Source: a virus | Strand: one strand, 5' to 3' | IMG/VR virus record: IMGVR_UViG_3300046369_000002 | Span: 1-31,626 of that record | DNA: 31,626 bases | Part shown: positions 4,888-19,802 of the stretch, one piece after another | Numbering within the stretch: the stretch's first letter is position 1 | How the letters are laid out: the number at the start of each line of letters is the position of its first letter | Program-made: the position numbers and the translations under genes | Notes under the pieces: model-generated | Told to the model about the DNA's origin: nothing | Seen by the model: the letters and a program-made list of their open reading frames with translations, nothing else | Database searches by the model: none

Positions 4888-5099
4888 TGGATGTTGTGGA
4901 CTTGGCGAAACATCTGTATAAGAAACTTGAAGAGCGCGAACAAGATATATCTCGGGCTCTTTCTCACGGTGCTGTAAAGGACTGGGAGCAGTATAAAATG
5001 TCTGTGGGAGAGATACGGGGACTCTCTCTTGCTAGAGAAGAAATCAAGACCCTGCTGGAAAGAAACGTAGACGATGTCGAAGACTTTATATCTTCCTGA
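4887..5099 (+). CDS. Small conserved helical protein upstream of co-chaperonin
   Basis: The 70-residue protein is almost entirely helical (DLAKHLYKKLEEREQDISRAL, then WEQYKMSVGEIRGLSLAREEIKTLLE) and acidic at the end. The WEQYKxxVGEIRGL block is typical of a small family found beside portal and scaffold genes of marine podoviruses and T4-like cyanophages. That recognition is from memory; no function is assigned. Start and previous stop overlap (TAATGG), and its 3' end overlaps the co-chaperonin gene by 26 bases, indicating tight translational coupling. Confidence 0.75.
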   Translation: MDVVDLAKHLYKKLEEREQDISRALSHGAVKDWEQYKMSVGEIRGLSLAREEIKTLLERNVDDVEDFISS

Positions 5100-5562
5100 T
5101 TCAGTCGCGCAGAAAATGAACAAAGACAAAAAGGCCAAACAGGCTGAGTCTTCTTCTTTGGACAGCGCGTATGTGGCCTCAGAAGAACGGGTGCTAGACC
5201 CAAACCTCTTAGAACAACCCCTGCTTGATCGACTTCCCCAACCCACAGGTTGGCGGGTTTTGGTTATGCCGTACCAAGGAAAAGCGAAAACTTCATCCGG
5301 TTTGTATATACCTGACGAAGTCCGAGAACGGGAGTCCGTTGCTACCGTAGTGGCTTATGTTATGAAGCTAGGTCCCCTAGCTTATAAGGATGCGGATAAG
5401 TTTGGCCCAGAGGCTGAACCATGGTGCAAAGAAGGCCAGTGGGTTTGTATAGGTCGGTATTCCGGCTCAAGATTTAAAATCGAAGGAGGGGAAGTTCGTA
5501 TTATCAACGATGACGAAGTTATCGCAACTATCCTCGAGCCTGACGATGTTAAACACATATAG
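5074..5562 (+). CDS. GroES-like co-chaperonin (Cpn10)
   Basis: The 162-residue product contains a Cpn10 fold from about residue 54 to the end. LPQPTGWRVLVMP gives the first strands, and a mobile-loop-like GKAKTSSGLYIPDEVRERES (69-88) carries the hydrophobic GLYI tripeptide region expected to touch GroEL. WCKEGQWVCIGRYSG and a final INDDEVIATI strand follow. A 50-residue polar N-terminal extension is extra compared with about 97 residues for bacterial GroES. Phage co-chaperonins such as T4 gp31 replace GroES to enlarge the folding cage for the capsid protein, and the position just before scaffold and coat genes fits that role. ATG 5074 is preferred; ATG 5116 is internal with no binding site. 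Confidence 0.88.
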   Translation: MSKTLYLPDSVAQKMNKDKKAKQAESSSLDSAYVASEERVLDPNLLEQPLLDRLPQPTGWRVLVMPYQGKAKTSSGLYIPDEVRERESVATVVAYVMKLGPLAYKDADKFGPEAEPWCKEGQWVCIGRYSGSRFKIEGGEVRIINDDEVIATILEPDDVKHI

Positions 5563-12501: not shown

Positions 12502-15156
12502 ATGGCGCTTATTGTTGCTGATAGAGTCAAGGAAACTACAAACACCACCGGAACAGGTGCGTACACTCTCGGTGGTGCAGTCGCGGGGTTTGATGCCTTT
12601 AGTTCTGTAATGAGTAACGCAGACACTGCGTACTATGCTATAACAGACGAGGTTAACTGGGAAGTCGGTCTAGGTACTTTTACCTCTTCCGGTGGAACAA
12701 TGGCCCGAACAACTGTTCTTGACTCATCAAACAGTGGCAGCGCAGTAAACTGGGGGGCAGGAACAAAGTCTATTTTCCTGACATTACCTGCGGTTAAAGT
12801 AATACAAGAGGATGCTGGCGATAACATTACTGTCGGCAACAACATCATTGTTGGAGGAACTGTTGACGGCGTAGACATTGCTACTCGAGATGCGGTTCTG
12901 ACCTCTACGACTACTACCGCAAACGCAGCTTTACCTAAAGCTGGCGGTACAATGACAGGTAATTTAATTCTTAATGCCGATCCGACTGCTACACTGCAAG
13001 CAGCCACCAAGCAGTATGTAGATACGATTGCGGCGGCGGGAATACATTATCACCAACCTTGTCGAGCACAGGCAACGGCAAATCTTAATGCTACATATAA
13101 CAACGGGTCTAGTGGTGTTGGAGCTACTTTGACTAACGCTGGAACACAGGCGGCATTGGTTATTGACGGGGTTTCTCTATCCTCATCGGATCGAGTTTTA
13201 ATCCAATTACAGACTAACCAAGCTCACAACGGTGTTTACACAGTTACTACAGTTGGTAGTGGTAGCACTAATTGGGTACTTACTCGAGCCACTGATGCTG
13301 ATTCATATGGGCCAAGTGACCCAGACGCATTAGGGGAAGGCGATGCTTTCTTTGTTACTGAAGGTACAGTTCACGGTGGTGAGCTAGATGTGATGACTAC
13401 GTCAGGTACTATTACTTTTGGTACAACTGCGATTGTCTTTGCGCTAGTTTCAGATGCTCCAATTTACACAGGTGGAACTGGGGTTTCTATTTCTGGAACT
13501 GTGGTATCTATAGGTCAGGCGGTTGCTACAAGCAGTAATGTGACGTTTAACCAAGTGACTGCTGCTCTGGTTGGTAATTCATCGACGGCTACCAAATGGG
13601 CTACGGGTAGAACTATTACTTTAACAGGTGACACTACAGGAGTATCCGGTACTTTTGATGGTTCTGGTAACGCATCTATCAGCACTACAATAGCAGACTT
13701 ACCTGGGAAACAGCCTTACTTAACTGTAGCAACTACCGTTTCTGGCGGTAAATTCTTGTTAGATGGCAGTTCTCAGCAAATCGCGCAACTACCTCGTTCT
13801 GTAACGATTCGGTTTGATCAGTCTGATAGCAGTAACACGACTCACCCGTTGCGTTTAAGTACTACGTCTGACGGTACTCATGGAGGGGGCTCTGCTTATA
13901 CCACTGGAGTTACGACTGTTGGAACACCGGGGTCGGCAGGCTCGTATACTCAGGTTACAATACAACAGTCCGCTCCGAATACATTGTATTATTATTGCGC
14001 TAACCACTCCGGTATGGGCAGTAAAATTTCAACGGGCATAGATTTAACTCCGTCTGCCTCTCCTACATTCTCGTCCGTTACTGCGGATTTAACGGGTGAT
14101 GTCACAGGGTCTGCAAACACGCTATCAACCGCTCGAACAATCGGGATGACAGGTGATGTTGTTTGGACTTCCGCTGCATTTGACGGAAGTGGGAATGTCA
14201 CTGGCACAGCAACGATACAAGCTAACTCTGTGGCTCTTGGAACAGACACAACTGGGAACTATGTTGCTGCAGGCGCTACCTCTGGTACGGGTATTTCGGG
14301 CTCTGTTTCCAGCGAAGGTGGGACTTTTACAGTCACTTCTAACGCAACTAGCGGGAACACTGGTGGAGCTATAGTTGCAAGGGATGGCTCTGGTAACTTT
14401 ACTGCGGGTACTATTACTGCCTCTTTAAGCGGGAATGCCTCTACTTCTTCTTCTACTTCGGGCAATGCAGCAACTGCTACGGCGTTGCAGACAGCAAGAA
14501 ATATTGGCGGTGTATCATTTAATGGTACAGCTAGTATTAACTTACCAGGGGTAAACACCGGAGGTAATCAAAGCACTTCTGGCAATGCAGCTAGTGCCAC
14601 GGTTTTACAGACAGCAAGGAACATCGGTGGTGTGTCCTTTAACGGTTCAGCTAATATTAACTTGCCCGGAGTAAACACTTCGGGGAACCAAAACACTTCT
14701 GGCAATGCAGCGACTGCAACCACCGCATCAACGGCTAACGCCTTAAATACTTCAAATGATTATCGTGTAGATTCTTTCGGGGTCGGCACAAACGCTTCGG
14801 GAACAACTGGAGAAATACGGGCTACAAACAACGTCACAGCGTATTACTCAGATGATAGACTGAAGACACGTTTTGGAAATATTGAAAACGCTCTTGAGAT
14901 GCTTTCGACTCTAAACGGTTTCTACTATGAAGCTAACGAGACTGCAGTTTCTTTGGGTTATGATGTCCACAAAGAGGTTGGGATTTCAGCCCAAGAAGTG
15001 CAAAAGATACTTCCTGAGATTGTAGCCCCTGCCCCTATTGATGATAAGTACCTGACTGTGCGATATGAACGGATGGTCCCTCTTTTAGTAGAGGCAATAA
15101 AAGAATTGTCGGATAAAGTAACAGACCTACAAGACCGTCTAGATGAAATAGAATAG
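12502..15156 (+). CDS. Long tail fibre with cupredoxin-like insert and S74 autocleavage chaperone
   Basis: The 884-residue product has an N-terminal attachment region (~1-100, VADRVKETTNTTGTGAYTLG) and a long Gly/Ser/Thr beta-rich shaft. At ~412-510 it has an unusual compact insert with His448 and Cys499-x2-His502-x2-Met505. Tandem 40-residue shaft repeats (NIGGVSFNG, INLPGVNT) follow, then a C-terminal Peptidase_S74 intramolecular chaperone. The S74 core is SDDRLK at 783-788; Ser783 and Lys788 match the Ser-Lys dyad of endosialidase-type domains, so cleavage just before Ser783 should release about 102 residues after trimerisation. The tail ends in a coiled coil (IKELSDKVTDLQDRLDEIE). AAGGAGAT precedes the ATG. 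Confidence 0.9.
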   Translation: MALIVADRVKETTNTTGTGAYTLGGAVAGFDAFSSVMSNADTAYYAITDEVNWEVGLGTFTSSGGTMARTTVLDSSNSGSAVNWGAGTKSIFLTLPAVKVIQEDAGDNITVGNNIIVGGTVDGVDIATRDAVLTSTTTTANAALPKAGGTMTGNLILNADPTATLQAATKQYVDTIAAAGIHYHQPCRAQATANLNATYNNGSSGVGATLTNAGTQAALVIDGVSLSSSDRVLIQLQTNQAHNGVYTVTTVGSGSTNWVLTRATDADSYGPSDPDALGEGDAFFVTEGTVHGGELDVMTTSGTITFGTTAIVFALVSDAPIYTGGTGVSISGTVVSIGQAVATSSNVTFNQVTAALVGNSSTATKWATGRTITLTGDTTGVSGTFDGSGNASISTTIADLPGKQPYLTVATTVSGGKFLLDGSSQQIAQLPRSVTIRFDQSDSSNTTHPLRLSTTSDGTHGGGSAYTTGVTTVGTPGSAGSYTQVTIQQSAPNTLYYYCANHSGMGSKISTGIDLTPSASPTFSSVTADLTGDVTGSANTLSTARTIGMTGDVVWTSAAFDGSGNVTGTATIQANSVALGTDTTGNYVAAGATSGTGISGSVSSEGGTFTVTSNATSGNTGGAIVARDGSGNFTAGTITASLSGNASTSSSTSGNAATATALQTARNIGGVSFNGTASINLPGVNTGGNQSTSGNAASATVLQTARNIGGVSFNGSANINLPGVNTSGNQNTSGNAATATTASTANALNTSNDYRVDSFGVGTNASGTTGEIRATNNVTAYYSDDRLKTRFGNIENALEMLSTLNGFYYEANETAVSLGYDVHKEVGISAQEVQKILPEIVAPAPIDDKYLTVRYERMVPLLVEAIKELSDKVTDLQDRLDEIE
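13735..14031 (+). other. Cupredoxin-like domain within the tail fibre
   Basis: This segment encodes fibre residues ~412-510. Within it, TTHPLRL (His448) is followed 51 residues later by LYYYCANHSGMGSK, giving Cys499, His502 and Met505 in a C-x2-H-x2-M loop. Type-1 copper proteins use one upstream His plus a C-terminal loop with Cys, His and Met; amicyanin has the same C-x2-H-x2-M spacing. The domain is beta-predicted, and the Tyr-rich strand before the Cys is also cupredoxin-like. Copper binding is an inference. The domain appears in the middle of the shaft, not at the tip. Confidence 0.6.
14461..14720 (+). repeat. 120-bp tandem repeats in the fibre gene
   Basis: GGCAATGCAG begins at 14461, 14581 and 14701, giving two full 120-base units and a partial third. 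Each encodes about 40 residues: SGNAA-TAT-LQTARNIGGVSFNG, INLPGVNT, GNQ. Codons differ at many third positions, so the repeats are old and held at protein level. Variable copy number could change fibre length. Confidence 0.85.
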
Positions 15157-16680: not shown

Positions 16681-17544
16681 ATGCCAGTTCCTACAGGTAC
16701 AGCCAGTTTACAGGACATTCAAAACGAGTTTGGCGGAAGCCATCCAATCGGGATTAGCGAATACTACGGTGCAGCGGCGGGAGTTCCTGCCAGCGGCACA
16801 ATTTCTATTAACGATTTCAGAGGCAAGTCCAATACATTTGCGTTTACCTTGACATCTAACCAACAAAACTACGATGTTCGAGCAGCGGCACTTAGCGCGG
16901 GATGGGACGGGTCATCCGAAGTTCAGCTTACAATTAACTCTGGAGTCACTGTTTACGCAAGCAGCACGTCGAACTATGCTTGCTCGTTTTCTGGGTCTTT
17001 CCCTTCTGGGGCTAAGTTAATTAATAACGGGATTATTGTTGGTCGCGGAGGAAATGGTGGCAACGGATACGCAGGCAACGGTGCATGTTACGGGTATGCT
17101 CCGTATGGTGGTGGATCTACAGGAGGCACAGGTGGCCCCGGTCTTTACACTTCGGTGGCGTTAAGTGTTACGAATAATAACCGTATTTCCGGTGGCGGCG
17201 GAGGTGGCGGTGGTGGCTACCCATCCAACTTTTCTTGGGGCGGATCTGGTGCTGGCGGAGGTCTTGGTATCTCTAGCGGAGGAAGCCCCGGAACTCACGG
17301 CTATGGATATGGCAATGGTGGGAATTTGACTGCCTTCGGCTACGGCGGAACCCCTAGATCTCAACCGGGCAGTGGCTGTCCTTGGGTTGAAGTGGGTGGT
17401 CGCGGAGGAAATGGTGGGACTTATGGCGCGGGTGGATCGGCTCCTGGTTCTTCTTCTGCACCAGGTGTCGGCGGCAACTACATAACTGGCAACAGTAACG
17501 TTACTTGGGTTGCAACTGGTACTCGGAACGGTGGAGTAGCCTAA
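16681..17544 (+). CDS. Glycine-rich putative receptor-binding protein
   Basis: The 287-residue product begins with a SLQDIQNEFGGSHPIGISEYYG segment and a SINDFRGKS segment that mark tail-tip proteins of many marine phages. A beta-domain follows (~50-118), then a long Gly-rich part from about residue 121 to the end with GRGGNGGNG, a run of nine Gly, and WGGSGAGGGLG. Repeated Gly-x-Gly and GGNGG motifs resemble the polyglycine-II sandwich of T4-like gp38 adhesins, whose loops contact the receptor. A role as host-recognition adhesin is inferred. Two Cys fall in Gly-rich loops (ACYGY, SGCPW). Confidence 0.78.
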   Translation: MPVPTGTASLQDIQNEFGGSHPIGISEYYGAAAGVPASGTISINDFRGKSNTFAFTLTSNQQNYDVRAAALSAGWDGSSEVQLTINSGVTVYASSTSNYACSFSGSFPSGAKLINNGIIVGRGGNGGNGYAGNGACYGYAPYGGGSTGGTGGPGLYTSVALSVTNNNRISGGGGGGGGGYPSNFSWGGSGAGGGLGISSGGSPGTHGYGYGNGGNLTAFGYGGTPRSQPGSGCPWVEVGGRGGNGGTYGAGGSAPGSSSAPGVGGNYITGNSNVTWVATGTRNGGVA

Positions 17545-17923: not shown

Positions 17924-18120
17924 ACTTGTTGCAGGAAAAAATGTTTACGGACAAAGAGACTGTGGCAAAGAGACTTGCGGTGTGCGGCTCTTGTCCTAGA
18001 AAAAAACTATCTAGGATTGTAAAAGTCTGGTCATACTGTGCTGAATGCCACTGTCCTTTAAAAGCAAAGACAGTTTTAAAAAGAGAAAGCTGCCCATTAG
18101 GAAAATGGAACTTTGTCTAG
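17920..18120 (+). CDS. Small Cys-rich zinc-ribbon-like protein
   Basis: The 66-residue protein is basic and carries six Cys: CGSC (22, 25), CAECHC (40, 43, 45) and SCP (58). Two CxxC knuckles plus additional Cys suggest a zinc or iron-sulphur site. Small proteins with a CGxCGCPL-type core, a K(T/A) segment and a final CPxGKW recur in phages; this one ends SCPLGKWNF. It is encoded just before three oxygenase-like genes and its stop overlaps the next TTG start, so it is likely co-translated with them. Confidence 0.75.
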   Translation: MNLLQEKMFTDKETVAKRLAVCGSCPRKKLSRIVKVWSYCAECHCPLKAKTVLKRESCPLGKWNFV

Positions 18121-18685
18121 TAGTATTCTTGTTGGTTCTTTCGGCCTACCTGATTCCTTTATAGATTATATTAATGGTGCGGATTTTCCTTGGAACTACG
18201 TTCATAGATCTACATCAGACGGCCTTTCATTTATGGGCCATACGCTTGTTTGCCGTAAAGATGAAGATCGTTGGAAGCCTAACTCAGAACATTGGCCCAC
18301 GGTTTACAAAGCGTTTGCTGCATTCTGTGATCGAAACAACATTGAGTTTACTGAAATTCAACGTTGTGCAATTAACATGACTTTTTCTCGTCCTGACTAT
18401 CCTTGTAGTGATGCACATGTGGATAAAACAACAGATCACAAAGTTCTTTTAGTCTACTTGAACTCTGATTGCACAGGGGACACTATAATCTACAGTGATA
18501 CATACAAGCAGGGAACAACGGGGGTTGCATTTTTTGACACAAAAGAGTTTAATGAGCTCAAAGAAATTAAAAGAATAAGCCCAGAAAAAAACAAAGCTGT
18601 TGTTTTTGACGGGGCTCATTATCATGCAGCAGAGTTTCCTGTTGCGGGGCAAAGAAGGCTAGTTTTAGTAGCTAACTTTAGATAG
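18113..18685 (+). CDS. 2OG-Fe(II) oxygenase-like protein (first of three)
   Basis: The 190-residue product starts at TTG 18113, overlapping the previous stop; no better start is present. It has the double-stranded beta-helix order of 2-oxoglutarate/iron dioxygenases: INMTFSRPDYPCSDAHVDKT with H102-x-D104, central strands (KVLLVYLNSDCTGDTIIYSD), GVAFFDTKEF, and AVVFDGAHYHAAEFPVAGQRR with a distal His (169 or 171) and Arg182 for 2OG. Family members hydroxylate proteins, small molecules or nucleic-acid bases; the substrate here is unknown. It follows fibre genes, so tail-protein hydroxylation is one option. Confidence 0.82.
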   Translation: MSSSILVGSFGLPDSFIDYINGADFPWNYVHRSTSDGLSFMGHTLVCRKDEDRWKPNSEHWPTVYKAFAAFCDRNNIEFTEIQRCAINMTFSRPDYPCSDAHVDKTTDHKVLLVYLNSDCTGDTIIYSDTYKQGTTGVAFFDTKEFNELKEIKRISPEKNKAVVFDGAHYHAAEFPVAGQRRLVLVANFR

Positions 18686-18693
18686 GGGGGCAC

Positions 18694-19257
18694 ATGCCTA
18701 ACGAAATTATCTACTGGCAGTGGGAAAAAGAAATTTCTCCAGAAGTTTGCACTCGGTTAATTTCCGAGAACAGACGAAACCTACAAGCAGCCAGAACCGT
18801 AGGGCCCGGTGGTCAAGATATGGTGGTAGACAGGCGAAGGAGTAGAGTAAACTTTGACGTAACCACTGAGGTTGAGGAAATGTGTTTGCATTATTTGTGG
18901 CTTGCAAACAGAGATGCCTTTGGATTTGACCTGTGGCCTAACGAAAAAAATAGAAACTTTAAGGCTCAGTTTTTAGAGTATAACGCAGAAGAAAAGGGCC
19001 ATTTTGATTGGCATCAAGATAGTTACCACCACGGGACTGCACGTTCCAACCGGAAGCTAACTCTGATTTGCCAATTAACTGATCCTAGTGAATATAAGGG
19101 CGGAGAACTAGATATAGGTATGGGCGGTGTTCCGTTAAGACCGGGACAAGGGACCATTGTAGTGTTCCCAAGCTACATGATTCACAGGATTAGTCCTGTG
19201 ACCGAAGGCAGGCGCAACTCTTTTGTTGCTTGGGTAGAAGGACCGGAGTGGAAATAA
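18694..19257 (+). CDS. PKHD-type 2OG-Fe(II) hydroxylase (second of three)
   Basis: The 187-residue protein has the standard prolyl/lysyl-hydroxylase (PKHD) pattern: GHFDWHQDSYHHG with H107-x-D109, LTLICQLTDPSEYKGGELDI, then GTIVVFPSYMIHRISPVTEGRR with H164 and Arg174. All metal and 2OG ligands appear intact. PKHD-family enzymes are frequent in cyanophages and other marine phages, and Fe(II)- and 2OG-dependent. The start is preceded by GGGGGG. Possible substrates are fibre proteins or host proteins. Stop overlaps the next start (TAATG). Confidence 0.9.
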   Translation: MPNEIIYWQWEKEISPEVCTRLISENRRNLQAARTVGPGGQDMVVDRRRSRVNFDVTTEVEEMCLHYLWLANRDAFGFDLWPNEKNRNFKAQFLEYNAEEKGHFDWHQDSYHHGTARSNRKLTLICQLTDPSEYKGGELDIGMGGVPLRPGQGTIVVFPSYMIHRISPVTEGRRNSFVAWVEGPEWK

Positions 19258-19802
19258 TGAGCTTAGAACAAGAAGAATTTTTAAAAGAACACGGATACTT
19301 TGTTGTACATGATGTGATGCCAAAGGACGTGTGTGAGAATCTTGCAAAAGAATTTGCGCGTGATGCAGAGTATATTGGGGTTAAAGATGACCTATGTCCG
19401 TCTGTTAATGGTTTATATAACCACATGCCTTTTGTCAGAACTTTAGTTGGTTTAGTGCCGCACATAAGTCATTTAGTGGGTGAAGCTGTTTTGCCAACAT
19501 ATGCTTATGCCCGTCACTACAATCATCAGGGGGCTGATCTAAAAAGGCACAAAGACCGTCCAGCCTGCGAGTTAAGCATGACTCTTAACATACGAAAAAC
19601 GCACGATTGGCCTATTTGGTTAACGGATCGTAAGGGTAACGATGTGTCGATTGACTTGCCCGTAGGCTCTGGGTTATTATACCACGGAATAGAACTCGAA
19701 CATTGGCGTCACCCGTATACAGGATCAGATCATATTAATGTGTTTTTGCATTGGGTGAGGGCTTTTGGGGCGTACTCGAACTACGTTTTTGACAGGGGCT
19801 GA
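19257..19802 (+). CDS. 2OG-Fe(II) oxygenase-like protein (third of three)
   Basis: The ATG at 19257 overlaps the previous stop and has GGAG upstream, giving 181 residues; an upstream ATG at 19230 is rejected. Motifs: a helical N terminus (EEFLKEHGYFVVHDVMP), YARHYNHQGADLKRHKDRPA with H98-x-D100, SMTLNIRKTHDWPIWL, a DLPVGSGLLYHGIELEHWRH block with H149 as likely distal ligand, and a C-terminal VFLHWVRAFG. This matches cyanophage proteins annotated as 2OG oxygenases. It differs strongly in sequence from the two upstream oxygenases, so they are not recent duplicates. Confidence 0.8.
   Translation: MSLEQEEFLKEHGYFVVHDVMPKDVCENLAKEFARDAEYIGVKDDLCPSVNGLYNHMPFVRTLVGLVPHISHLVGEAVLPTYAYARHYNHQGADLKRHKDRPACELSMTLNIRKTHDWPIWLTDRKGNDVSIDLPVGSGLLYHGIELEHWRHPYTGSDHINVFLHWVRAFGAYSNYVFDRG

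Follow-up and report, generated by a model that had tools for sequence, protein, structure and literature searches.

A cupredoxin-like domain with a predicted type-1-like metal site in a viral tail fibre

Main finding

The window, the whole 31,626-nucleotide stretch of IMG/VR virus record IMGVR_UViG_3300046369_000002 that was analysed, encodes a marine phage tail fibre whose residues 409–511 very probably form a cupredoxin domain with an intact type-1-like site, predicted to bind metal. Taken as a whole, the reading we consider probable is that of an exchangeable cupredoxin module whose metal-stiffened loop would serve as an adhesion or recognition patch; within it we infer the bound metal, its identity as copper, and the role.

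The tail fibre and its domains

The features of the fibre are as follows (window coordinates).

12502..15156, + strand: tail fibre gene (protein P0001, 884 aa), from PHROG tail fibre matches (to E 1e-37) and translation
13528..13692, + strand: shaft repeat copy preceding the domain, residues ~343–397, from self-comparison with residues 518–572
13726..14034, + strand: cupredoxin-like domain, residues ~409–511, from a block conserved in relatives, an AlphaFold2 model (pLDDT 92), fold search and hhalign
13843..13845, + strand: His448, first putative metal ligand, start of beta-4; in 84/84 distinct ligand-blind relatives
13996..13998, + strand: Cys499, putative metal ligand, end of beta-7; in 84/84 distinct ligand-blind relatives
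14005..14007, + strand: His502, putative metal ligand, beta-7/beta-8 loop; in 84/84 distinct ligand-blind relatives
14014..14016, + strand: Met505, axial ligand position; in 84/84 ligand-blind relatives and retained in site-less families, so partly structural
14053..14217, + strand: shaft repeat copy following the domain, residues 518–572, from self-comparison with residues ~343–397
14848..15024, + strand: Peptidase_S74 fibre chaperone, residues 783–841, Pfam E 1.1e-9, above cut-off

The chaperone forms the C-terminal part of the fibre, which contains 2 Cys, 8 His and 9 Met in all. An initial annotation, made from the sequence alone, had placed a type-1-copper-like ligand set in this protein at 13735–14031. 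The location holds, with a slightly wider true extent (13726–14034), and the checked protein sequence has His448, Cys499, His502 and Met505 exactly where they were claimed, C-A-N-H-S-G-M reading as C-x2-H-x2-M. This is also the spacing of the amicyanin ligand loop. The Tyr-rich strand described ahead of the Cys is likewise present, corresponding to model strand 93–98 with its preceding residue (L-Y-Y-Y-C).

The same fibre carries an HxH motif (G-I-H-Y-H-Q-P-C; window 13045–13065, residues 182–188) that resembles motifs proposed for iron binding in tail fibres and is shared with the related fibres L320 and L354. Elsewhere in the window, 659–1162 encodes a protein that is predicted to be secreted, has a signal-like stretch at its N-terminus and matches nothing in Pfam; a phage-encoded GroES-like chaperonin lies at 5074–5562 (Cpn10, E 2.7e-10) and, downstream of the fibre at 16681–17544, a glycine-rich protein with a weak, below-cut-off resemblance to the tail-fibre adhesin gp38. 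Three adjacent genes occupy 18113–19802: a match to 2OG-Fe(II) oxygenase is clear for the second (E 2e-15) and weak, below cut-off, for the first, and the third is similar by eye, with no Pfam match.

Predicted fold

The AlphaFold2 model of the domain (pLDDT 92, pTM 0.84; 64 aligned sequences) is a discrete beta-sandwich of ~103 aa. Its strand order is that of the eight-strand Greek-key sandwich of cupredoxins, whose ligands are found where beta-4 begins and in the beta-7/beta-8 loop. In model numbering, strand 49–52 follows directly after His448, strand 93–98 ends with Cys499, and the loop ahead of strand 105–109 contains His502 and Met505. Structure prediction and comparison with cupredoxins, the check proposed in the initial annotation, thus gave a confident model with cupredoxin strand order.

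The best matches in a PDB fold search were almost all type-1 copper proteins, at TM-scores of only about 0.5, and included copper nitrite reductase, rusticyanin, pseudoazurin, amicyanin, plastocyanin, laccase and CuA domains. A pseudoazurin with an engineered amicyanin loop ranked sixth.

Sequence relationship to known cupredoxins

No curated Pfam or NCBIfam model covering the domain was found. The domain alone matched no cupredoxin family model in Pfam or NCBIfam and nothing at all in NCBIfam; PF00127 (Copper-bind, cut-off 21.2 bits) left it unmatched even at E 10. Copper-bind is nevertheless the Pfam family that matches most relatives, weakly, in 6 of 83 (best E 0.0012). A match to PF16656 (Pur_ac_phosph_N; 21.8 bits, E 0.0003) fell below the curated cut-off of 30 bits, and 4 of the 83 relatives matched this family. 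A single-sequence search of the PDB gave only weak matches, with antibodies at the top and pseudoazurin among the others.

Profile comparisons reached further. A profile of the 83 diverse relatives had plastocyanins among its best PDB matches, in register (E 0.026), and hhalign detected homology to known cupredoxins, aligning all four ligands at 95.6% probability (E 1.3e-8 for that single comparison) with a profile of 23 PF00127 Copper-bind proteins whose selection by a C/H/M motif filter introduces a slight bias. With the ligands masked, the register was kept (E 0.0047) and the probability dropped to 7.5%; against one amicyanin sequence, the loop alone aligned. Because the PF00127 cut-off was not reached, the domain is best placed, on sequence grounds, in a branch of the cupredoxin superfamily that is new and not yet catalogued, and outside PF00127.

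Conservation and concerted loss of the ligands

Scanning viral contigs with the domain yielded 305 relatives, of which 80 were kept. Only 10 columns of this first alignment were invariant, the four ligands among them. A second, ligand-blind scan used the patterns [DN]GTH[GDN][GS]G[ST][AEQ] and G[TVS][PA]G[SQN][AS]G[AS][YF][TV], which contain none of the four ligands, and recovered at least 595 relatives, again with 80 kept. Among the matches listed, His448, Cys499, His502 and Met505 were all present in 84/84 distinct domains of the ligand-blind set. The ligands are near-invariant in relatives down to about 40% identity. The domain therefore has the His, Cys, His and axial Met of a type-1 copper site, in fixed order and conserved.

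Across 282 distinct full domains, all four ligands (H-C-H-M) were kept in 263. Fourteen of the 19 exceptions lose His, Cys and His together, with (W/F/Y/K)-N-T-M or Y-S-Q-M at the site; four lose both His (F-C-Q-M) and one loses Cys, His and Met (H-S-G-Y). These 19 are related sequences and count as at least four families rather than as 19 independent events, and the largest site-less group was retrieved with one of its own members as query. Loss of a single ligand occurred in none of the 282 domains, even though 51 residues separate His448 from Cys499. In the site-less domains the position of the ligand His varies and the fold signature (FDQSHSSN...GTPG) is retained; most of them also keep Met505, whose conservation must then be partly structural.

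Joint loss is the pattern expected of residues that share a metal site and differs from that of folding residues. Homologues lacking these residues, which the initial annotation named as the finding that would count against it, are few, and in them the site is lost as a set. Together with the fold prediction, the blind fold search and the profile–profile comparison, near-invariance and concerted loss support the proposal that the fibre contains a cupredoxin fold whose type-1-copper ligand set is intact.

One group of site-less sequences (L359–L379) forms a stable marine viral subfamily in which the fold signature is kept and His, Cys and His are lost (W/F/Y/K-N-T-M).

An exchangeable module in the fibre shaft

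One shaft repeat occurs on both sides of the domain in the window fibre (residues ~343–397 and 518–572). Fibres of related phages, located through the gene just upstream, align over their full length (L320 at 51% and L315 at 55% identity) and lack the domain; in the L320 fibre, the shaft repeats continue uninterrupted where it is absent. Two copies of the domain occur in 13 of 353 matching open frames. The domain-free fibres of close relatives show that the domain is exchangeable, and because they have the same shaft, a metal site that stabilises the shaft appears less likely.

Distribution in phages and bacteria

The initial annotation pointed to YYYCxNHSGMG-like segments in the fibres of other marine phages; such stretches prove to be widespread, with at least 595 in IMG/VR and the domain in 34 to 50 of 50,697 annotated phage records. 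Cultured carriers infect Prochlorococcus, Synechococcus, Pelagibacter and Methylophilales, and named hosts are nearly all marine. The proteins that contain the domain bear the annotation tail fibre (Mosig, Baldr, Melnitz, P-SSM2 and Bellamy), virion structural protein (Syn1 and S-H9-1) or gp7 baseplate wedge (P-HM2 and S-CAM9), and the one in S-TIM5 is a structural protein encoded two genes downstream of the portal. A structure search found the fold to be common to many Prochlorococcus and Synechococcus phage proteins. No mass-spectrometry evidence placing a specific carrier protein in virions was found in one published study, so the presence of carriers in virions rests on annotation and gene position.

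The domain also occurs in cellular genomes. SAR86 chromosomes encode lipoproteins that combine it with a lipobox-like signal and have shared neighbours (L117, 4725–5273; L109, 4833–5333), and a further SAR86 lipoprotein (L148, 3627–5327) fuses it to an HExxH protein (HEYFH, a metalloprotease-like motif). The three cluster together in a domain tree built on few columns. The SAR86 lipoprotein model (pLDDT 84) gave mixed fold matches, both cupredoxin and Ig-fold, and does not strongly support the cupredoxin assignment. Three Bacteroidota open frames of >3400 aa (L085, L105 and L106) carry the domain as well. The SAR86 and Bacteroidota carriers look like surface proteins. No plasmid carrying the domain was found among those searched.

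Beyond these carriers, the giant virus Pithovirus LCPAC302 has a free-standing 124-aa beta-sandwich protein (BFVD A0A481Z6J5) that matches the domain model (E 6e-6).

Nature of the site and possible role

In the mechanism we propose, a self-contained, exchangeable module is inserted into the shaft of an S74-chaperone tail fibre. Its sandwich would grip a single metal ion, most probably copper, with the beginning of beta-4 on one side and the beta-7/beta-8 loop on the other; fixed by the ion, this loop would become rigid and expose a patch around His502 to the solvent. On the flank of the fibre that faces the host envelope, the patch may then provide stickiness or recognition, as the domain may also do in surface proteins of marine bacteria. 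The module is probably passed around among the surface proteins of virions. We propose adhesion or recognition tentatively, from the types of protein in which the domain is found, and favour it over electron transfer.

The most serious rival is that the site takes another metal, for example zinc from the host cytoplasm, which merely stabilises the domain. Zinc can occupy the type-1 sites in recombinant azurin, and virions are put together in the cytoplasm, a reducing and copper-poor setting in which copper loading is uncertain. Met505, conserved where the remaining ligands are gone, is no argument for copper either. The ligand set and its spacing are nonetheless those of type-1 copper proteins, the nearest folds are copper proteins, and the ligand-less families indicate that the domain can fold without a site, which leaves this alternative unlikely.

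A working type-1 copper site might instead sense redox state or copper, or pass electrons, and so trigger a change in the fibre at the host surface. The full four-ligand set is like that of electron-transfer cupredoxins, but no redox partner was seen, the domain lies mid-shaft, the same domain occurs in gp7 baseplate and portal-adjacent proteins, and relatives manage without it; we consider this improbable. Slightly harder still to sustain is an Ig-like domain or another beta-sandwich that binds no metal and keeps the four residues because its folding needs them. Ig-fold chains do appear among the sequence and fold search matches, as does the weak Pfam match to the purple acid phosphatase N-terminal domain. 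Against this, the ligands are lost in concert and never singly, site-less forms retain the rest of the signature, and the blind fold search with the model of this domain ranks copper proteins first. A chance arrangement of four residues, with no homology or function, has only the shortness of the motif in its favour and is ruled out by near-invariance down to about 40% identity and by an expected count of about 0.0002 for the C-x2-H-x2-M triplet given the composition.

Should the predicted metal binding of the cupredoxin module hold, a class of fibre and baseplate proteins that is very common in marine phages would consist of metalloproteins, and many ocean virus particles may be so in a way new to the literature searched. 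This would matter for the attachment of phages to the most abundant bacteria of the ocean and for the binding of trace copper in seawater. A more speculative extension, which we consider rather unlikely, is that abundant marine phages, among them those of SAR11, Prochlorococcus, Synechococcus and Methylophilales, use copper-loaded domains of their tail fibres and baseplates to dock on copper proteins or uptake receptors at the host surface, in a copper version of the iron Trojan horse, with virions acting as carriers of strongly bound copper at sea. Cultured carriers (P-SSM2, Mosig, Baldr, Melnitz and S-TIM5) make metal binding directly testable.

Comparison with known systems

The literature searched, with most subscription journals and bioRxiv preprints outside its scope, contained no report linking cupredoxins, plastocyanin-like or blue copper proteins to a phage virion, tail or baseplate. 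The nearest published idea is the iron HxH/Trojan-horse proposal (PMC11705849), which likewise places a metal site in a phage tail fibre. The T4 gp37-type sites it concerns are octahedral HxH iron sites on the trimer axis, with no cupredoxin fold, whereas the fibre described here has a single-chain His/Cys/His/Met site.

PHROG families 27200, 30742, 708, 693 and 677 (tail fibre, baseplate and unknown) contain the same domain (E 2e-9 to 1.5e-20), but they are grouped by whole protein, and the PHROG table gives neither a domain name nor a metal function.

Among cellular proteins, the closest likeness is to the plastocyanin/azurin family (PF00127), especially amicyanin and pseudoazurin, with which the domain shares the four ligands, their order and the strand order. 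It differs from members of that family in lying below detection by the Pfam model, in having its own signature (FDQSDSSNxxHPLRFSTTSDGTHGGG) and in being part of a fibre, whereas they are small soluble periplasmic electron carriers. Intermediate sequences are found in flavobacterial cupredoxin domains (L243, L244, L247 and L248; HPFYI...YYYQCSAHNGMYG), which pass the PF00127 cut-off and differ from the phage domain in belonging to large cellular proteins and in having a shorter beta-4 to beta-7 region.
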